47,948 nucleotides of DNA from Fibrobacterota bacterium. GTDB taxonomy: Bacteria; Fibrobacterota; Chitinivibrionia; Chitinivibrionales; FEN-1185. A program made the translations under genes and the position numbers. The notes below the pieces were generated by a model. The model was given only the letters and a program-made list of their open reading frames with translations. It searched no databases and was not told the origin of the DNA. Location of the stretch: assembly GCA_003165595.1 (NCBI GenBank), contig PLWQ01000014.1, positions 2,084 to 50,031 on the forward strand. The letters are read 5' to 3'. Below, in pieces: positions 37,184 to 44,973 of this stretch (the stretch's first letter is position 1; each line of letters starts with the position of its first letter).

Positions 37184-38893
37184 ATGCTCAGATTTGCCGG
37201 CATATCTGCTGTACTCGTTTGTTGTCTCACAACATTGACATTTGCCGACATCGTCGGCCACATTGCCGACACGGTGACGCACGCTTCAATAGCGAACGTC
37301 AAGGTTACCGTCATCGGAACCACGTCGACCGCCACCACGGATGGCCAGGGGAATTTCACCATTCCCACAACCTTCGCGGTCGCCGTGCCCGCTCCTGCCG
37401 GCAGCGCCGCCGGACTGCGGCCGATCCTCAGGGATCGATTGCTGGCACTTGACGCTCCGGATAACATCCTCGCCGTTTCCATTGTAAATTCCCGGGGCAC
37501 GGCTGTGTTCTACCGTGACCTCCGGCAAAGCGCGACGCAGCGCGCGTCGGTGCAGGTGCCGGCCCTGGCGCAAGGAATGTATCTGGTGGACGTCGCCCTT
37601 GCGCGTGCGCACGTGACGCTGCGGCTGCTGAGCGCGGGCGGCCGTATGGAATTGGCCCCTGAAGCGGTTCGTGCGGAAAGCGGGCAGGCGAGCCTGGCAA
37701 AGCGGGACGCGGTCACCACCTACGCGGTATCATGCGAAAACGCCGCCTACAAAACGCGCGAGGCAAACGTGATCGATTCCGGCGTCAACGAAATCCGCCT
37801 CGTGCCTGCGTCGTCTTCTTCCTATTACTACTTTGAGCCCGTCCAGCTTGACGACGGCATCACCACCGGCACGGTCAAGGCAGCTTCCATGAGCCAGTCG
37901 CTTATGGAAGGGGCGGCGCTCAAGGCCCTCAACAAGGTCAACTGCCACGAGATCCACAGCATTCTTGTTTGCAAAGATTCCAAGCTCGTGTTCGAAGAGT
38001 ATTTTTACGGCAACAACGACACCATCAACTTCGAGAACAACGTTTCCCGCGTCTCCAACGGCAACATCCAATGGTCGCGCACGCTCAAACATTATATCGC
38101 CTCGGCCACCAAAGCGATCACCTCCACGGTTGTATCAATTGCGCTTGACAAAATGGGGCTTACCCCCGACGAGAAGATCGCAAAATACCTGCCTTCATAT
38201 TCGGCCCTGTTCACGGGTCAGAAGGCGAACCTCACACTCAAGAACTGCCTTAACATGGAGTCGGGGCTCGACTGGAACGAATGGGGCGGGCCGGACCTCA
38301 ATAACATGTGGAGCGTCTCCGATACCGACTTTACCGCCTTTGTGCTCAATCACAATAGCCGGTCGACGCCCGGGACCGAATGGGTGTATTGCAGCGGATT
38401 GCCCAATGTGGAGCTGCACGTTGTCCAGAACATGGTCCAGGACTCGGCGGCCAGGTTCATCCGCCAGAACCTGCTTGCGCCGCTCGGCATCACCGACATC
38501 AAGTGGGAAACCCAGCACGGCAAAGGCATGCTGCCCGAAGGCGCGGCGCGGCTCTTTATCCGGCCGCGCGACATGCTCAAATGGGGAATGACGTGCCTTA
38601 ACAACGGGCAATGGCAGGGAGTGCAGGTGATTCCGTCCGCGTGGCTGACGGCGTGCCGCCAGGTCCAGTACAACGGCAACTACAGCAACCATTTCTGGAT
38701 CACCACGTACACCTATGGAACCAAGACCGCCACCGCGTTCGCCGCGGAAGGGGACGGCGGCAATTACATCTGCATGTTTCCCTCGCTCAACATGGTGGTG
38801 GTGTTTACCGGCGGACTGTATCTCGAGTCGCCAACGTACGACAACCAGATTACGGATTTCTTGACAAACTATATACTTCCGGCGGCGGGATAG
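37184..38893 (+). CDS. secreted class C beta-lactamase-like serine hydrolase with N-terminal accessory domains
   Basis: A 569-aa protein; a G-rich ribosome binding site (GGGGGGG) lies 6 bases before ATG 37184. Order: signal peptide (1-21), a carboxypeptidase-regulatory-like beta domain (DIVGHIADTVTHASIANVKVTV, about 22-65), a segment resembling a sorting domain (LAVSIVNSRGTAVFYRDL...GMYLVDVALARAHV, about 90-150) placed internally, and a penicillin-binding/beta-lactamase class C domain (about 220-565). Active-site motifs: SATK (S-x-x-K), YCSGLPN (Y-x-S) and GDGGN near the end. Such hydrolases include esterases and D-peptidases; the substrate is unknown. It is divergent from resB with a 283-base gap. 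It may act outside the cell. Confidence 0.88.
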   Translation: MLRFAGISAVLVCCLTTLTFADIVGHIADTVTHASIANVKVTVIGTTSTATTDGQGNFTIPTTFAVAVPAPAGSAAGLRPILRDRLLALDAPDNILAVSIVNSRGTAVFYRDLRQSATQRASVQVPALAQGMYLVDVALARAHVTLRLLSAGGRMELAPEAVRAESGQASLAKRDAVTTYAVSCENAAYKTREANVIDSGVNEIRLVPASSSSYYYFEPVQLDDGITTGTVKAASMSQSLMEGAALKALNKVNCHEIHSILVCKDSKLVFEEYFYGNNDTINFENNVSRVSNGNIQWSRTLKHYIASATKAITSTVVSIALDKMGLTPDEKIAKYLPSYSALFTGQKANLTLKNCLNMESGLDWNEWGGPDLNNMWSVSDTDFTAFVLNHNSRSTPGTEWVYCSGLPNVELHVVQNMVQDSAARFIRQNLLAPLGITDIKWETQHGKGMLPEGAARLFIRPRDMLKWGMTCLNNGQWQGVQVIPSAWLTACRQVQYNGNYSNHFWITTYTYGTKTATAFAAEGDGGNYICMFPSLNMVVVFTGGLYLESPTYDNQITDFLTNYILPAAG

Positions 38894-39351: not shown

Positions 39352-40803
39352 TCACCTCATCGTTACCGCAGTCGTTGCTGTAATACGACCATTTTCCTCT
39401 AGAACTATCCTGTACACGCCGGACACAAGATTGAGCGAGGCGAGGGAGACGGCATTGTCGCCTCTGCGCATTGCCTGTAACGACAGATTCGCAACAAGGC
39501 GTCCCCGCGCCGAAAGAACGCGGACTGAGGCCGACGCCGGGTTCGCAAGCCTGAAGAAAAGGGAAGCGCCCTTGACCGCGAGGAAGCGAGTCTTGTCAAA
39601 TGCAACCGAGGCAGCCGGAGATGCAGCGGTCGCTGCCGTCGCCCTCTGGTACATTTCGTAACCCGCCTGCAGGAACGCGCCTTCGCCTTCCGGCGAGGAG
39701 TTGTTGACATCCGCGCTGAGGTCGGTCCGTGGCATCCAGTCGACATGCTGGCAGCGCAGGAGCCTGCCGTCGGCGCCGATGTTCTTGACAAGGTCGCTCC
39801 ATGCCTTATTGATGCACGGATTGTACGTTGCGGAATCGAGGAGGCCGTTGCGGACCCCCCAAGCCATGGCAAAGCAGAAAAAAGCGGAGCCGCTGGTTTC
39901 CGGATCCGGGTAGTCGGGGTGGTCGAGCATGCAAGTGGTCCACAAACCCTGGTAGAGGGTATTGTTTCCCTGTTGAGCCTTGATTGCCGCACAGATGTCC
40001 TGGAACTGAGCGACAAACTGCGACCGGTTGGCGTAGGTCTTAGGCATATGGTCGAGTATTCTTGCCATCCCGCCGATCACCCAGGCCTCGCCGCATGACC
40101 AGAACATCGGCTTGCCATTGGGGCAGACATTTTTTGGTGGGATAAAGCTTCCATCCCTGTAGTAAAATTTGTAGGTCGTGTTGTACAGCGAGTCCGCGAC
40201 CAGTTCCCACCAGTTGGTCATGGAATCCAGGTAACCGGTCTGATTTGCCGCTTGACAATACAGTGTTATGGCGGGAGGTGCCATGTAAAGCGCGTCGCAC
40301 CACCACCAGCAGGTCTTGGGGTTAAGGTGTGATCCGAACAGGTGCGCCAGATTTTGTGCGGTACTGCTTATCATGTTGTTGTTCGCAGTTACCGGGTTCA
40401 GAAGGTAGATTTCGGAATAGGTCTGCGCGCAGCAGATATTGTCCGCAGTTGTTGTGTTCACACCGTTCCAAGGCAGCCAATTGAAATAGGTCGCCCAGCG
40501 CTTTGCGAAATTGAGGTATGTCGTGTCCTTTGAGGTATAATACATTGCCATGAGACCGGTCATAAACGATCCGACATCCCAGTCGTTTCCCTGGTTGGCC
40601 CCGTCATAGGGGTTCGGCTGGTCGCCTTTCCCGGCAGACGTGTGGTTGTAAAGGTTGGCAATGTCGGCGTAGGTCATGCGATAGTGCGCAACGCGTTTCA
40701 TGACGTTTGCAATGCTATCCGCGTCGAATTCGGTGAGGGCAAAAGACCGGTTGGCGCACAGCAATAATGTTGCTAAAACCAGCACGCGGCTTGGTGTGTT
40801 CAT
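39352..40803 (-). CDS. secreted GH105-like unsaturated glycuronyl hydrolase with sorting-type C-terminus
   Basis: A 483-aa protein; ATG 40803 has AAAGGAG 9 bases upstream. Signal peptide to about residue 23 (NRSFA). Residues 30-390 look like the six-hairpin (alpha/alpha)6 barrel of GH105/GH88: DWDVGSFMTGLMAMYY, KTCWWWCDALYMAPPAITLY with the catalytic-type Asp, MFWSCGEAWVIGGMARIL, PETSGSAFFCFAMAWGVRNGLL and EGEGAFLQAGYEMY. Such enzymes remove unsaturated uronic residues left by pectin or alginate-type lyases. The last 80 residues (RVLSARGRLVANLSL...SGVYRIVLEENG) are a sorting-type domain. It is last in the minus-strand CBM run but follows a terminator hairpin. Confidence 0.85.
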   Translation of the reverse strand: MNTPSRVLVLATLLLCANRSFALTEFDADSIANVMKRVAHYRMTYADIANLYNHTSAGKGDQPNPYDGANQGNDWDVGSFMTGLMAMYYTSKDTTYLNFAKRWATYFNWLPWNGVNTTTADNICCAQTYSEIYLLNPVTANNNMISSTAQNLAHLFGSHLNPKTCWWWCDALYMAPPAITLYCQAANQTGYLDSMTNWWELVADSLYNTTYKFYYRDGSFIPPKNVCPNGKPMFWSCGEAWVIGGMARILDHMPKTYANRSQFVAQFQDICAAIKAQQGNNTLYQGLWTTCMLDHPDYPDPETSGSAFFCFAMAWGVRNGLLDSATYNPCINKAWSDLVKNIGADGRLLRCQHVDWMPRTDLSADVNNSSPEGEGAFLQAGYEMYQRATAATAASPAASVAFDKTRFLAVKGASLFFRLANPASASVRVLSARGRLVANLSLQAMRRGDNAVSLASLNLVSGVYRIVLEENGRITATTAVTMR

Positions 40804-40926
40804 CGGACTTTCTCCTTTTGCGATGAAGAGGACAATGGCAGGCATCACACTACAAAATAAGGAAAATTCCCGGGGTTTGAGAAGAAAAAATGCACACTTG
40901 CGCCGGGCTCTGCAAGTTGGGCATCA

Positions 40927-40958
40927 AAGAAAGGGACTCGAAGCAGCGAGTCCCCTTT
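40927..40958. terminator. hairpin between the CBM6-like gene and GH105
   Basis: GGGACTCG (40933-40940) and CGAGTCCC (40947-40954) form a perfect stem. On the minus strand it is followed by TTTCTTTG, on the plus strand by CTTTT. It would end or attenuate transcription between the CBM6-like gene (stop 40986) and GH105 (start 40803). Confidence 0.78.
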
Positions 40959-40985
40959 TCCATTCACCAATCCTGTGTCAAAAGA

Positions 40986-41966
40986 TCAATGCGTTATCGT
41001 CAAAGACCTTACTTCCCTGGAACCGTTCTGTTCAACCTGTACGAAATAAACCCCGCGGCGCATGTTCCGCAGATTGAAGGTGTGGTTTTGCAGCCCTGCA
41101 GCTCCGCTGCTTTCGATTGAGGACAAGACCGCCCTGCCGGCACAATTGACCAATGATATTCGCGCGTTGCCGGCCCCGACAGCATTGTAGGAAAGCTTCA
41201 GGTTGTTACCAGACACAACGGCATGCAGCGCAAGCGAACCCGCAGCTGAATTCTCGTAAACGGGTTCACCTGCCACCGTCGACGACACAAGCGTGAACTT
41301 TATCCAGTCGAAATTGAACCCGCCCTGGACGTATGTGTATTTGACCACGTACAGGCCGGTATCGAGAACAACCTGGCCAACATTTGGAAAGGTATCCCAG
41401 GCATGCCAGACTTCCGATTTGATCTGGGCAGCAGTGGGCACATGTAGATTGTTGATGTAGACGTTGGTTGTGGTATCCTCGTTGAATGTAATGCACGTGG
41501 TATTTGGCGTGGAGGCCGGCACCTCGTGCAGGCATATCGAGTAGGTTCCCGCGATATTGACGTGACAGCTCATTCTTTGATATTCACCCGGATCTATCCA
41601 TGAAATATGCCATGTCTGTGAACCTGTGGAATCGGTCATCATGTAGACCGTCCAGTCCCAATAGGAATTGAAATACTGCATGTCAACCGGCAGATCGGCC
41701 TGGATCTGCTGTTTGTTCTTGTCCAGTCGCATGGAGCCGCCCTGGTTGCCCACGGTTGTTTCATGGAATCCCACGCCTTCGCCGCCCGAGTCGAAAAACA
41801 CGGCCTTGACAACGCCCGGAATCTGCTGGTAGTGTCCCAGCAGTGTGTCGCAGCAGAAGGGCTTTCCCGTGTAGCCGGCCGGGATGCCGGAAGGAATCAC
41901 AGCTGCGCCTGCCGACACAGCACATAGCGCCGCCGCGATTGCGGCAATTTTGCAATACTGGTGCAT
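40986..41966 (-). CDS. secreted CBM6-like protein with sorting-type C-terminus (copy D)
   Basis: A 326-aa protein; GGGGAG lies 8 bases before ATG 41966. A signal peptide (cut near SAGAA) precedes IPSGIPAGYTGKPFCCDTLLGHYQQIPGVV and FFDSGGEGVGFHE, a CBM6-type lead. Jelly-roll strands then include WIDPGEYQRMSCHVNIAGTYSICLHE and ends with GGFNFDWIKFTLVSS. The classic CBM6 start has a Glu-Ala-Glu before the aromatic pair, but here it is KAVFF. The last 80 residues (LVNCAGRAVLSSIE...RGVYFVQVEQNG) are a sorting-type domain. There is no catalytic domain. It is the closest to copy A in its lead and linker. The spacer to copy C is 57 bases. Confidence 0.82.
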   Translation of the reverse strand: MHQYCKIAAIAAALCAVSAGAAVIPSGIPAGYTGKPFCCDTLLGHYQQIPGVVKAVFFDSGGEGVGFHETTVGNQGGSMRLDKNKQQIQADLPVDMQYFNSYWDWTVYMMTDSTGSQTWHISWIDPGEYQRMSCHVNIAGTYSICLHEVPASTPNTTCITFNEDTTTNVYINNLHVPTAAQIKSEVWHAWDTFPNVGQVVLDTGLYVVKYTYVQGGFNFDWIKFTLVSSTVAGEPVYENSAAGSLALHAVVSGNNLKLSYNAVGAGNARISLVNCAGRAVLSSIESSGAAGLQNHTFNLRNMRRGVYFVQVEQNGSREVRSLTITH

Positions 41967-42023
41967 AGAAAAAACTCCCCTGAAAGATGAATGGTACTAT
42001 TCTCTTCGCAACGAAAAAACTGC

Positions 42024-42989
42024 TTACCTCGTGATAATAAACCGCGATTTCGCCATCAAGCCGTGGTGCTCTATTTCCAGAAAGTAAACGCCGGGACTGA
42101 GTTTACCCAAAGCCAGGCTCTGTGATTGCGGTCCTGCAGCCAGAGACTTTGCAACGGAATTCCCAACCAATTTTCCGCTGCAATCCAACAGGGAAAACGA
42201 TGCCACGCCTGTTTGATACATGTCGAAAGATATTCTAAGCGTGTTTCCCATCGGCCTGACTTCAACCGCGCTTTGTCTCTCCGGAACTGCCGTGCTTGCC
42301 TGCACCACCGGCGTGGGGTAGTGGAGATCAAAACTCATCCAATCCAGGTTCCAGCTGCCGAGCAAGAAAGTAATTTGAACGACTTGGAGCCCTGTGTCAA
42401 GCATCACCGAATCCACATTGTTGTTCATGGTCCAGGAGTGCCAGAGTTCGGGGCATCCCGGCGGTACAGTTACAACCGGCAGATTGATAATCGAATCTAT
42501 TTTTGTCTTGGTACCATCATAGTAGGTAAGCACTTCACAGTTTGGATAATAGGCGGTCGCCTGGTGAAAGCTGATATAATACATGCCTGCCGTATTCACA
42601 TGGACGGAATACTTGTTCCATTGCCCGTTCGAATCAATCCAGGCCAGATGCCAATAGCCTGCTTCATGCTGGTCGGTGATCATGTCGTAATCGTTGCCGC
42701 TGTATTGTTGCATGCATAAGGGGGCATCTGCCGGAATCTGTTGTTTTGCCGCATTCAGACGCATGGTTCCGCCCCCGCCGCAGCCGCCGGGGTAATGGAA
42801 TGCAACACCCTCTCCGCCCGAGTCGAAAAACACGCACACAACTTTTCCGGGGATTTGCTGGTAATGGCGCATGAGCGTATCACAGCAATAGGGAACGCCG
42901 GGGTATCCCGCCGGAATGGCCGCGCTTGCAAGTGAGGCAGCCAACAAACACGTGAGTGCCGCAGCGACAATCGAAACGGAAAAGCGCAT
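42024..42989 (-). CDS. secreted CBM6-like protein with sorting-type C-terminus (copy C)
   Basis: A 321-aa paralogue; AAGGAG lies 8 bases before ATG 42989. Signal peptide (ASLASAA) then IPAGYPGVPYCCDTLMRHYQQIPG, VFFDSGGEGVAFHYPG, and a jelly roll with WIDSNGQWNKYSVHVNTAGMYYISFHQ and SWNLDWMSFDLHY. The paired Cys of PYCCDTL is shared with copy D only. The C-terminus (LLDCSGKLVGNSV...PGVYFLEIEHHG) is sorting-like. It begins 26 bases after copy B, with the same spacing as between copies A and B, so the unit seems to have been duplicated with its ribosome binding site. Confidence 0.83.
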   Translation of the reverse strand: MRFSVSIVAAALTCLLAASLASAAIPAGYPGVPYCCDTLMRHYQQIPGKVVCVFFDSGGEGVAFHYPGGCGGGGTMRLNAAKQQIPADAPLCMQQYSGNDYDMITDQHEAGYWHLAWIDSNGQWNKYSVHVNTAGMYYISFHQATAYYPNCEVLTYYDGTKTKIDSIINLPVVTVPPGCPELWHSWTMNNNVDSVMLDTGLQVVQITFLLGSWNLDWMSFDLHYPTPVVQASTAVPERQSAVEVRPMGNTLRISFDMYQTGVASFSLLDCSGKLVGNSVAKSLAAGPQSQSLALGKLSPGVYFLEIEHHGLMAKSRFIITR

Positions 42990-43015
42990 ACGCCGGACTC
43001 CTTGGAAAATGGTGA

Positions 43016-43972
43016 TCAATGAGTAATTGTAAAGGATTTCACTTCTCTGACGCCGTTGTGTTCAACGTTTACAAAATATACGCCCCGGCCGATGTTCCCG
43101 AGGCTGATTGTTTCCGTCCGGCTTCCGCTGTTCAGGTTCCTGGTTTTAGCGGGAACCATTGCCCTGCCTTCGCAGTCGAAAACAGAGACCGTCGTCGGCC
43201 CGGCCTGTTCGAGTGAATAAGAAATACACAGTTTGTTTCTATTGACAACAGGCGTAATCGCAAGCCCTTTTTGCACAAGGCCCCGGTTTGTTGCCGGCAC
43301 GGTGGACGTACCATCTAAAAGAAACTTCATGCCGTGGAAGTTTAGGCCTTCGTGGAAAAATGAGACCTTTATGAGAAAGAGGCCGGTATCAAGCGCAAGC
43401 CTGGTTTTCGTAGTGTCCCATCTCCAGTCGTGATTGATTTCAACGTCGCCCGGCGGCCTGATGCTTGCCGGCAATCCACCTACCGAATCGGGCGGGAGGT
43501 CGCCGACATTGAAGATGATCAGGTTGCTGGTATCGACAACGGAGTGATGCAATATCATTTTGTAGTTACCGGCAGTGTTCACATGCACTGTATATTTAAG
43601 CCATTCTCCGCTCTGCACCCACCCGATATGACAATTGGCGTGAGCGGGATAGGCGGCGGAGTCAACGATACCTCCAACGGTTCCCGCAACAAAATCATTC
43701 CAAGTTCCAAAAAACTGCAGGGATACCTTCTTGCCTGGGTCACCATCACGCCAGTGACAATCGCCCATGTTGCTCCAAGTATAATTGAATGTCACTCCTG
43801 AGTCACCCTTATCGAAATACGCTGCGGTTACAAAACCCGGGATTTGCATCGGTATTCCCTTAAGCGAGTCAAAAACCGTACCGGCGTACCCTGCGGGCAT
43901 CGCGGCGCAGACAAGCGACGCCATCAGGAAAACTGATGCCGCCATGGCGGCGAATTTTTGGTAGAGACGCAT
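43016..43972 (-). CDS. secreted CBM6-like protein with sorting-type C-terminus (copy B)
   Basis: A 318-aa paralogue; TAGGAG lies 8 bases before ATG 43972. It is the most diverged of the four in its lead (AYFDKGDSGVTFNYTW instead of FDxGGEGVxFH) but has the most typical CBM6 core: WVQSGEWLKYTVHVNTAGNYKMILHH, PGDVEINHDWRWDTTKTRLALDTGLFLIKVSFF, and GLNFHGMKFLL. The C-terminus (VFDCEGRAMVPAKTR...GRGVYFVNVEHNG) is sorting-like. It probably binds a different glycan from its neighbours. It starts 26 bases after copy A. Confidence 0.83.
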   Translation of the reverse strand: MRLYQKFAAMAASVFLMASLVCAAMPAGYAGTVFDSLKGIPMQIPGFVTAAYFDKGDSGVTFNYTWSNMGDCHWRDGDPGKKVSLQFFGTWNDFVAGTVGGIVDSAAYPAHANCHIGWVQSGEWLKYTVHVNTAGNYKMILHHSVVDTSNLIIFNVGDLPPDSVGGLPASIRPPGDVEINHDWRWDTTKTRLALDTGLFLIKVSFFHEGLNFHGMKFLLDGTSTVPATNRGLVQKGLAITPVVNRNKLCISYSLEQAGPTTVSVFDCEGRAMVPAKTRNLNSGSRTETISLGNIGRGVYFVNVEHNGVREVKSFTITH

Positions 43973-43998
43973 ACGGGAAACTCCTATGAGAAGGTACA

Positions 43999-44973
43999 TC
44001 AACGTGTGATCGCTATCGATTTCACTTCCTTGATTCCGTCATGCTCGACGTTCACAAAATAGACGCCATGGCGAAGGTTGTGCACGTTAAGCGCCACGGT
44101 TCGATTTCCCCGTATCGCGGCGTTGTCGATCGACGACAGAATCGATTTTCCCGAACAATCGGTGAGCGATATCCGCGCAGGGAAAGCGTCGGTTGCGTTG
44201 TACAAAACCGACAGGCGTCCGTCGGTAAGAATTGCCCTGACGTCCATCGCCGTTTTCGCGGACCTTGCGTTCATCTGGTCGCTCACTCCGGATGCGCTTT
44301 TGAGCGTGAACCTCATCCAATCGAAATTCCAGCCACCCTTTACAAACTGCTGTTTGAGCGTGTACATGCCGGTGTCAAGATCGACCGTTGCCACGTCCAT
44401 GAATCTATTCCAAATATGCCATACCTCGCTGCCCGTATGGACTTGCGATGCGAGAACGTGGGGAAGGTTGTTGATAAGGATGGGCGTCGCGTTGTTGAAC
44501 TGAAGGCTTATCGTGTTTAGGGAGTCAACGGCCGCTGCATGAATATCAATGGTGTAGGTGCCGGCCATGAGCACTTTCACCGTATGCCTTGTCCAGTCGC
44601 CGTTGACAGGATCGGAGTTGATCCACGATTCATGCCATGAGCCCAGGGTTTCGGGCTGGTTGGTGACTGTCCAGTCCCAATAGCTGTCGAACGCCTGCAT
44701 TTCCACTGACCTGTCTGCAGCCAGAGGCCGCATGGTTCCGCCGCCGCCGACGCCAGTGCCGTCCATCTCATGGAAGCCGACTCCTTCGCCGCCTTCATCG
44801 AAGAACACGACCTTGATGACGCCCGGAATCTGCTGGGCATTGCCTTTGAGCGTGTCACCGGTGAACACCTTCCCTGCATAGCCTGCGGGGATGCCCGACG
44901 GTATTACTGCTGCGCCGACCGACATGACGCAAAATGTCACCGCTACCACGGCAATCCTAAAATGGAGACGCAT
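43999..44973 (-). CDS. secreted CBM6-like protein with sorting-type C-terminus (copy A)
   Basis: A 324-aa protein, first of the tandem; AAGGAG lies 8 bases before ATG 44973. Signal peptide (cut near SVGAA), then IPSGIPAGYAGKVFTGDTLKGNAQQIPG, VVFFDEGGEGVGFHEMDG, a jelly roll with WINSDPVNGDWTRHTVKVLMAGTYTIDIHA and GGWNFDWMRFTLKS. The C-terminus (LTDCSGKSILSSID...RHGVYFVNVEHDG) is sorting-like. CBM6 domains bind beta-glucan, xylan or related chains; as there is no enzyme domain, these proteins may coat the cell or hold polysaccharide at the surface. The leader region upstream is hairpin-rich. Confidence 0.83.
   Translation of the reverse strand: MRLHFRIAVVAVTFCVMSVGAAVIPSGIPAGYAGKVFTGDTLKGNAQQIPGVIKVVFFDEGGEGVGFHEMDGTGVGGGGTMRPLAADRSVEMQAFDSYWDWTVTNQPETLGSWHESWINSDPVNGDWTRHTVKVLMAGTYTIDIHAAAVDSLNTISLQFNNATPILINNLPHVLASQVHTGSEVWHIWNRFMDVATVDLDTGMYTLKQQFVKGGWNFDWMRFTLKSASGVSDQMNARSAKTAMDVRAILTDGRLSVLYNATDAFPARISLTDCSGKSILSSIDNAAIRGNRTVALNVHNLRHGVYFVNVEHDGIKEVKSIAITR

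Follow-up and report, generated by a model that had tools for sequence, protein, structure and literature searches.

A tandem array of four genes without an enzyme domain

The window, that is, the whole stretch of 47,948 nucleotides analysed here, comes from a Fibrobacterota bacterium and carries four consecutive genes on its minus strand, which we call copies A to D. Copy A (43999–44973, 324 aa) is the first gene of the array and is predicted to encode an exported protein with a CBM6-type module and a type A tail for type IX secretion (T9SS). It is followed by copy B (43016–43972, 318 aa from the ATG at 43972), copy C (42024–42989, 321 aa from the ATG at 42989) and copy D (40986–41966, 326 aa), the last with a CBM6 fold and an Ig-like tail in its AlphaFold2 model. 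All four frames are intact, each encodes about 320 aa with no enzyme domain, and AGGAG or GGGAG stands ahead of each likely start (ATG at 44973, 43972, 42989 and 41966). The minus-strand spacers between A and B (43973–43998) and between B and C (42990–43015) both measure 26 bases and contain an AGGAG ribosome-binding site; the C–D spacer, counted from the likely ATG starts, has 57 bases. These positions agree with the initial annotation, which described four tandem, enzyme-free, CBM6-like proteins with identical A–B and B–C spacing. Pairwise identity of B, C and D to A is 33–48%, so the copies are old duplicates and not recent ones.

Fold and family of the N-terminal module

Taken singly, A–D gave weak CBM_6 or CBM_35 matches in Pfam scans, and none of the four reached the CBM_6 gathering score (PF03422, 28.9 bits; best 18.8 bits, for B). 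Profiles of the family were more telling: one built from four rows already retrieves solved CBM6 modules, and with 26 rows the profile hits AaBglC (7e-34) and the CtXyl5A CBM6 (4e-19). Two stand-alone paralogues in the genome of the window pass the 28.9-bit cut-off themselves (C1:47157 with 40.3 bits and C16:5652 with 31.2 bits).

The mature form of D was modelled with AlphaFold2 from 26 rows (mean pLDDT 79), a model built from 11 rows being poor (pLDDT 64). The best structural match was the CtXyl5A CBM6 (5la2; Z 17.8, 2.4 Å over 162 residues), followed by other solved CBM6 modules with Z of 12–15. This Clostridium thermocellum module (PDB 2y8k, 5la2, 5g56) has the same jelly roll as residues 8–208 of the D model, at 24% identity, and shares with it the I-x-A-x-x-F-D-x-G-G opening frame, the sugar-site Asn and a Gly-Glu-Trp segment. 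It differs in having E-A-E and in being fused to a GH5 enzyme, whereas A–D stand alone and have lost both Glu.

On profile and model evidence, the A–D modules are divergent members of the CBM6 superfamily, not formal CBM6, as they fall below the Pfam cut-off; a new fold is ruled out by the same two lines of evidence. The separation from known CBM families with the usual binding residues that the initial annotation had drawn thus holds only in part, the superfamily being CBM6 and sugar-site residues being found in A, C and D.

Calcium ligands lost from the opening, sugar-site residues kept in A, C and D

A calcium site made of an E-x-E motif and an Asp is conserved in many CBM6 members without strictly defining them. 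In BT0996-C, a related structure, the Glu pair of E-x-E and a C-terminal Asp hold structural calcium, and the sugar site of CBM6 and CBM35 consists of a Trp in region A and an Asn in region C (PMC9843283).

In the array, E-x-E is replaced by KVVFF (A), TAAYF (B), VCVFF (C) and KAVFF (D). Profile alignment sets the CtXyl5A CBM6 sequence RIEAEDFDWGGNGV against the family sequence VKAVFFDSGGEGV, which shows that the frame given in the initial annotation was right: RIEAEDFD pairs with VKAVFFD, and both Glu are lost. Glu-Ala-Glu is indeed replaced in all four copies, but the replacement described as hydrophobic is so only at the second Glu (V, A, V and V in A, B, C and D), the first reading K, T, V and K. 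Both Glu are also missing from all 23 genus paralogues in the alignment, which rules out a change special to A–D; as aligned, the loss of E-x-E is a trait of the lineage. The genome of the window also has a canonical CBM6 (L098), and that one keeps EAE (IEAENFD). The idea that such a loss is unheard of is weakened by some enzyme-linked CBM6 modules in related genomes, which read Q-A-E or Q-A-Q.

Copies A, C and D keep the region-A Trp, the region-C Asn and the calcium Asp, while B keeps the sugar-site Asn but has no Trp at the region-A position (EINHDW) and no Asp at the calcium position (NFHG). Among the 23 genus paralogues, a Trp or another aromatic residue persists at this position in most, and the Asn is nearly invariant. 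Since E-x-E holds calcium and the Trp and Asn persist, the change is a loss of calcium ligands and not of the sugar cleft. The altered opening therefore does not amount to a new binding mode: what is removed is the calcium Glu pair, with the Trp and Asn kept in A, C and D. The outcome is probably a jelly roll that lacks the conserved structural calcium and folds calcium-free. In at least one member of the array, copy B, the key aromatic is missing, and sugar binding of the usual kind may be absent there. BT0996-C (PMC9843283) likewise has an atypical CBM6/CBM35-like fold with deviating signatures, but in reverse: its calcium Glu pair is intact and the Trp and Asn of its sugar site are gone, the opposite of A, C and D.

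Export signals

The C-terminal sorting domain was found in all four proteins above both cut-offs, with 28.1–31.5 bits for PF18962 (cut-off 27) and 23.5–27.8 bits for TIGR04183 (cut-off 23), in line with the shared sorting-type C-termini proposed at the outset. In the D model, residues 223–305 form a separate Ig-like sandwich that corresponds to this sorting tail. At the other end, A–D have a basic start, a hydrophobic stretch and an A-x-A-like end, as judged by eye. The same genome encodes SprA (SprA_N within a 2203-aa frame) and two PorU homologues that score over cut-off; a route for type IX secretion is thus available. By sorting domain and genome machinery, A–D are predicted T9SS type A cargo and would be exported.

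A GH105 neighbour probably insulated in part from the array

Downstream of D, also on the minus strand, lies a gene for a GH88/GH105-family hydrolase of the unsaturated glycuronyl hydrolase type (39352–40803, ATG at 40803), with a ribosome-binding site of its own. The protein scores 200 bits with PF07470 and ends in a weak sorting-like tail below cut-off. Its WWWCDALYM segment aligns with 4ce7 and fits the WWWxDALxM motif containing the catalytic Asp, a role known for this residue from YteR (Asp143). The nearest solved relatives, the unsaturated 3S-rhamnoglycuronyl hydrolase 4ce7 and the family 88 hydrolase 5noa, suggest a uronic-acid polysaccharide without fixing which.

The gap between D and the GH105 gene contains a terminator-like hairpin (40925–40962, minus strand) with the stem GGGACTCG and a T-rich tail (−22.8 kcal/mol, z −2.4). 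In a congener, four family genes on one contig (C38) are followed by a same-strand GH105 gene and a cytochrome c biogenesis pair, as in the window; this pair was named by ResB in the window and by eye-judged similarity in the congener. A hairpin unrelated in sequence, and stronger (−34.5 kcal/mol, z −4.0), occupies the same place there. The initial annotation had the array made together with the GH105 enzyme yet partly insulated from it. The congener has the same linkage and again a hairpin, and the presence of a hairpin in both genomes supports partial insulation of the array from the GH105 gene.

The window also has a plus-strand gene (37184–38893), flanked by the cytochrome c biogenesis pair on one side and the GH105 gene on the other, that is missing from this place in the congener. 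It encodes a beta-lactamase/esterase-family protein with a CarboxypepD_reg-like start, in which a stretch resembling a sorting tail (residues 96–138, below cut-off) precedes the catalytic domain instead of being C-terminal. The congener further encodes, close to family loci, a pair of related exported proteins about 450 aa long (L061:17355–18692, CPAFVHKVAVKQYVDSG; L063:9381–10760, CPAYVKRLNITTYLDSG), neither of which had a Pfam match. The genome of the window encodes Fibro_Slime proteins, in keeping with Fibrobacterota, to which T9SS and general similarity also point.

Compared with random placement, GH88/105 loci lie within 5 kb of family genes more often than expected (2/6, P 0.006; 3/7, P 0.0003), two tests that are not independent, as two pairs are orthologous between the two genomes. 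A run of four tandem GH88/105 genes in the genome of the window (C32:26835–31927) has no adjoining stand-alone CBM6 family gene.

This neighbourhood raises a different role for A–D, as non-covalent partners that dock onto or stabilise secreted enzymes (the GH105 or others) instead of holding polysaccharide. Glycan binding does not follow from homology, because the nearest solved relative, the CBM6 of CtXyl5A, acts chiefly to stabilise the GH5 module it is fused to (PMC5063996); this precedent, together with the recurrence of GH88/105 genes as family neighbours, speaks for enzyme partnership. We nonetheless consider it improbable: one enzyme faces four binders across a hairpin, most family loci have no GH105 nearby, and A, C and D retain the sugar-site residues.

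An expanded family, found in one genus among the genomes searched

About fourteen near-full-length family members were found in the genome of the window (on contigs C8, C16, C1, C17, C28 and C41), plus fragments, and about twelve in the one congener examined. A second genome of the same taxonomic family (79% complete) had no family member, and the matches from other genomes of the order and phylum were almost all enzyme-length CBM6 proteins and sorting tails. The proposal that exported CBM6-like proteins without enzymes form a family of their own is thereby upheld, with this genus as its only home among the genomes searched. Searches of viral contigs and plasmids returned no match to the family, which rules out a phage or plasmid origin by that measure. 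A replacement of enzyme-linked CBM6 by stand-alone modules in this genus is unsupported, since other genomes of the order span 0–23 strong CBM6 matches without having this family.

Among outside relatives only one is named, the stand-alone CBM6 protein L073:4742–5395 of Flavobacterium sp. MC2016-06, which is 217 aa long. Like the family, it has a single CBM6 module and a similar GKPQQIPG lead-in; its gene adjoins a glycoside hydrolase (GH30-like by eye), and it passes the Pfam CBM_6 cut-off with 35.8 bits. It differs in keeping both Glu (VECELYD) and in having no sorting tail, and its identity is 26%. In the same phylum, Fibrobacter succinogenes S85 has the non-catalytic CBM6 proteins FSU_2273 and FSU_3051, the latter with a basic terminal domain (PMC3079729, Table 5). 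The same paper describes as unclear what stand-alone CBM6 proteins do in Fibrobacter; CBM6 with C-terminal modules is usual in the hemicellulases of F. succinogenes (PMC6851124). By description the S85 pair resembles A–D, being exported CBM6 proteins with no catalytic domain, one of them with a C-terminal module, but there are only two of them and, unlike A–D, they are not described as a tandem array.

In the tree, B groups with its congener orthologue (100/100; 76% identity) and C with copies from the congener (100/99); A and D pair with each other (97/96). Family copies diverge to 33–50% identity. Among orthologue pairs, dN/dS came to 0.18 with B and 0.23 with C; two more pairs gave 0.19 and 0.21. 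Truncated members occur at C23:161567–161869 (a 144-aa N-terminal part), C16:6308–6553 (an 84-aa tail) and C28:136072–136239 (a 59-aa tail with an internal TAG), and we read these as signs of family birth and death. A second cluster (L058, C28:126000–145985) holds at least four more distant members over about 10 kb on both strands, opening with GRINFHDYD or similar.

Two further explanations turn on these data. The fragments on C23, C16 and C28 could be taken to mean that A–D too are decaying, functionless duplicates, but the four intact frames with their ribosome-binding sites, the synteny of the array in the congener and above all the purifying selection on the B and C orthologues make this very improbable and largely refute it. 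Alternatively, A–D could be mainly a structural coat or antigen-like, with sugar binding lost and the expansion reflecting variation instead of ligand range. The fast divergence of the copies, the gene fragments, the absence of the calcium Glu pair from every family row and the missing Trp in B would fit a coat or antigen; persistence of the Trp and of a nearly invariant Asn in most copies over long divergence, with dN/dS of about 0.2, would not, and we regard it as unlikely.

Proposed role of the array

CBM6 modules are mostly parts of enzymes. Taken globally, the evidence favours reading A–D as a genus-specific, expanded set of stand-alone CBM6-type glycan-binding proteins, exported by T9SS, made from one transcription unit and directed at a substrate linked to the GH105 enzyme (probability about 0.68). 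Mechanistically, the layout suggests that A–D would be made from one transcription unit ending at the hairpin before the GH105 gene. Each protein would leave by Sec, through the N-terminus recognised by eye, and then by type IX secretion through its C-terminal domain, and would end up displayed on the cell surface or released from it. Copies A, C and D, with Trp and Asn kept, would bind a sugar chain in the cleft that is usual for CBM6, and B would bind differently or have a structural role. In this way the array would probably serve to anchor cells to a polysaccharide that contains uronic acids, or to gather it, with the GH105 enzyme cleaving the unsaturated fragments of that polysaccharide; it is the GH105 neighbourhood that points to this substrate for the array. 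The holding or coating of polysaccharide by A–D, put forward in the initial annotation, is a fair inference.

A bolder version is possible but doubtful: a genus-specific radiation of calcium-independent, CBM6-derived, T9SS-displayed lectins, about 12–14 per genome, each tuned to a different glycan, with detached modules replacing enzyme-fused ones.

A–D thus remain recognisable as a variant, if an unusual one, of the known sugar binders of cell surfaces. New here are the expansion at genus level, the conservation of the tandem array together with GH105, and a loss of the calcium Glu pair that runs through the whole family and spares the sugar site. That loss makes the family a natural experiment on whether the fold needs calcium, and a detached, exported CBM6 set offers a testable case of gripping plant or algal polysaccharide without a scaffold.
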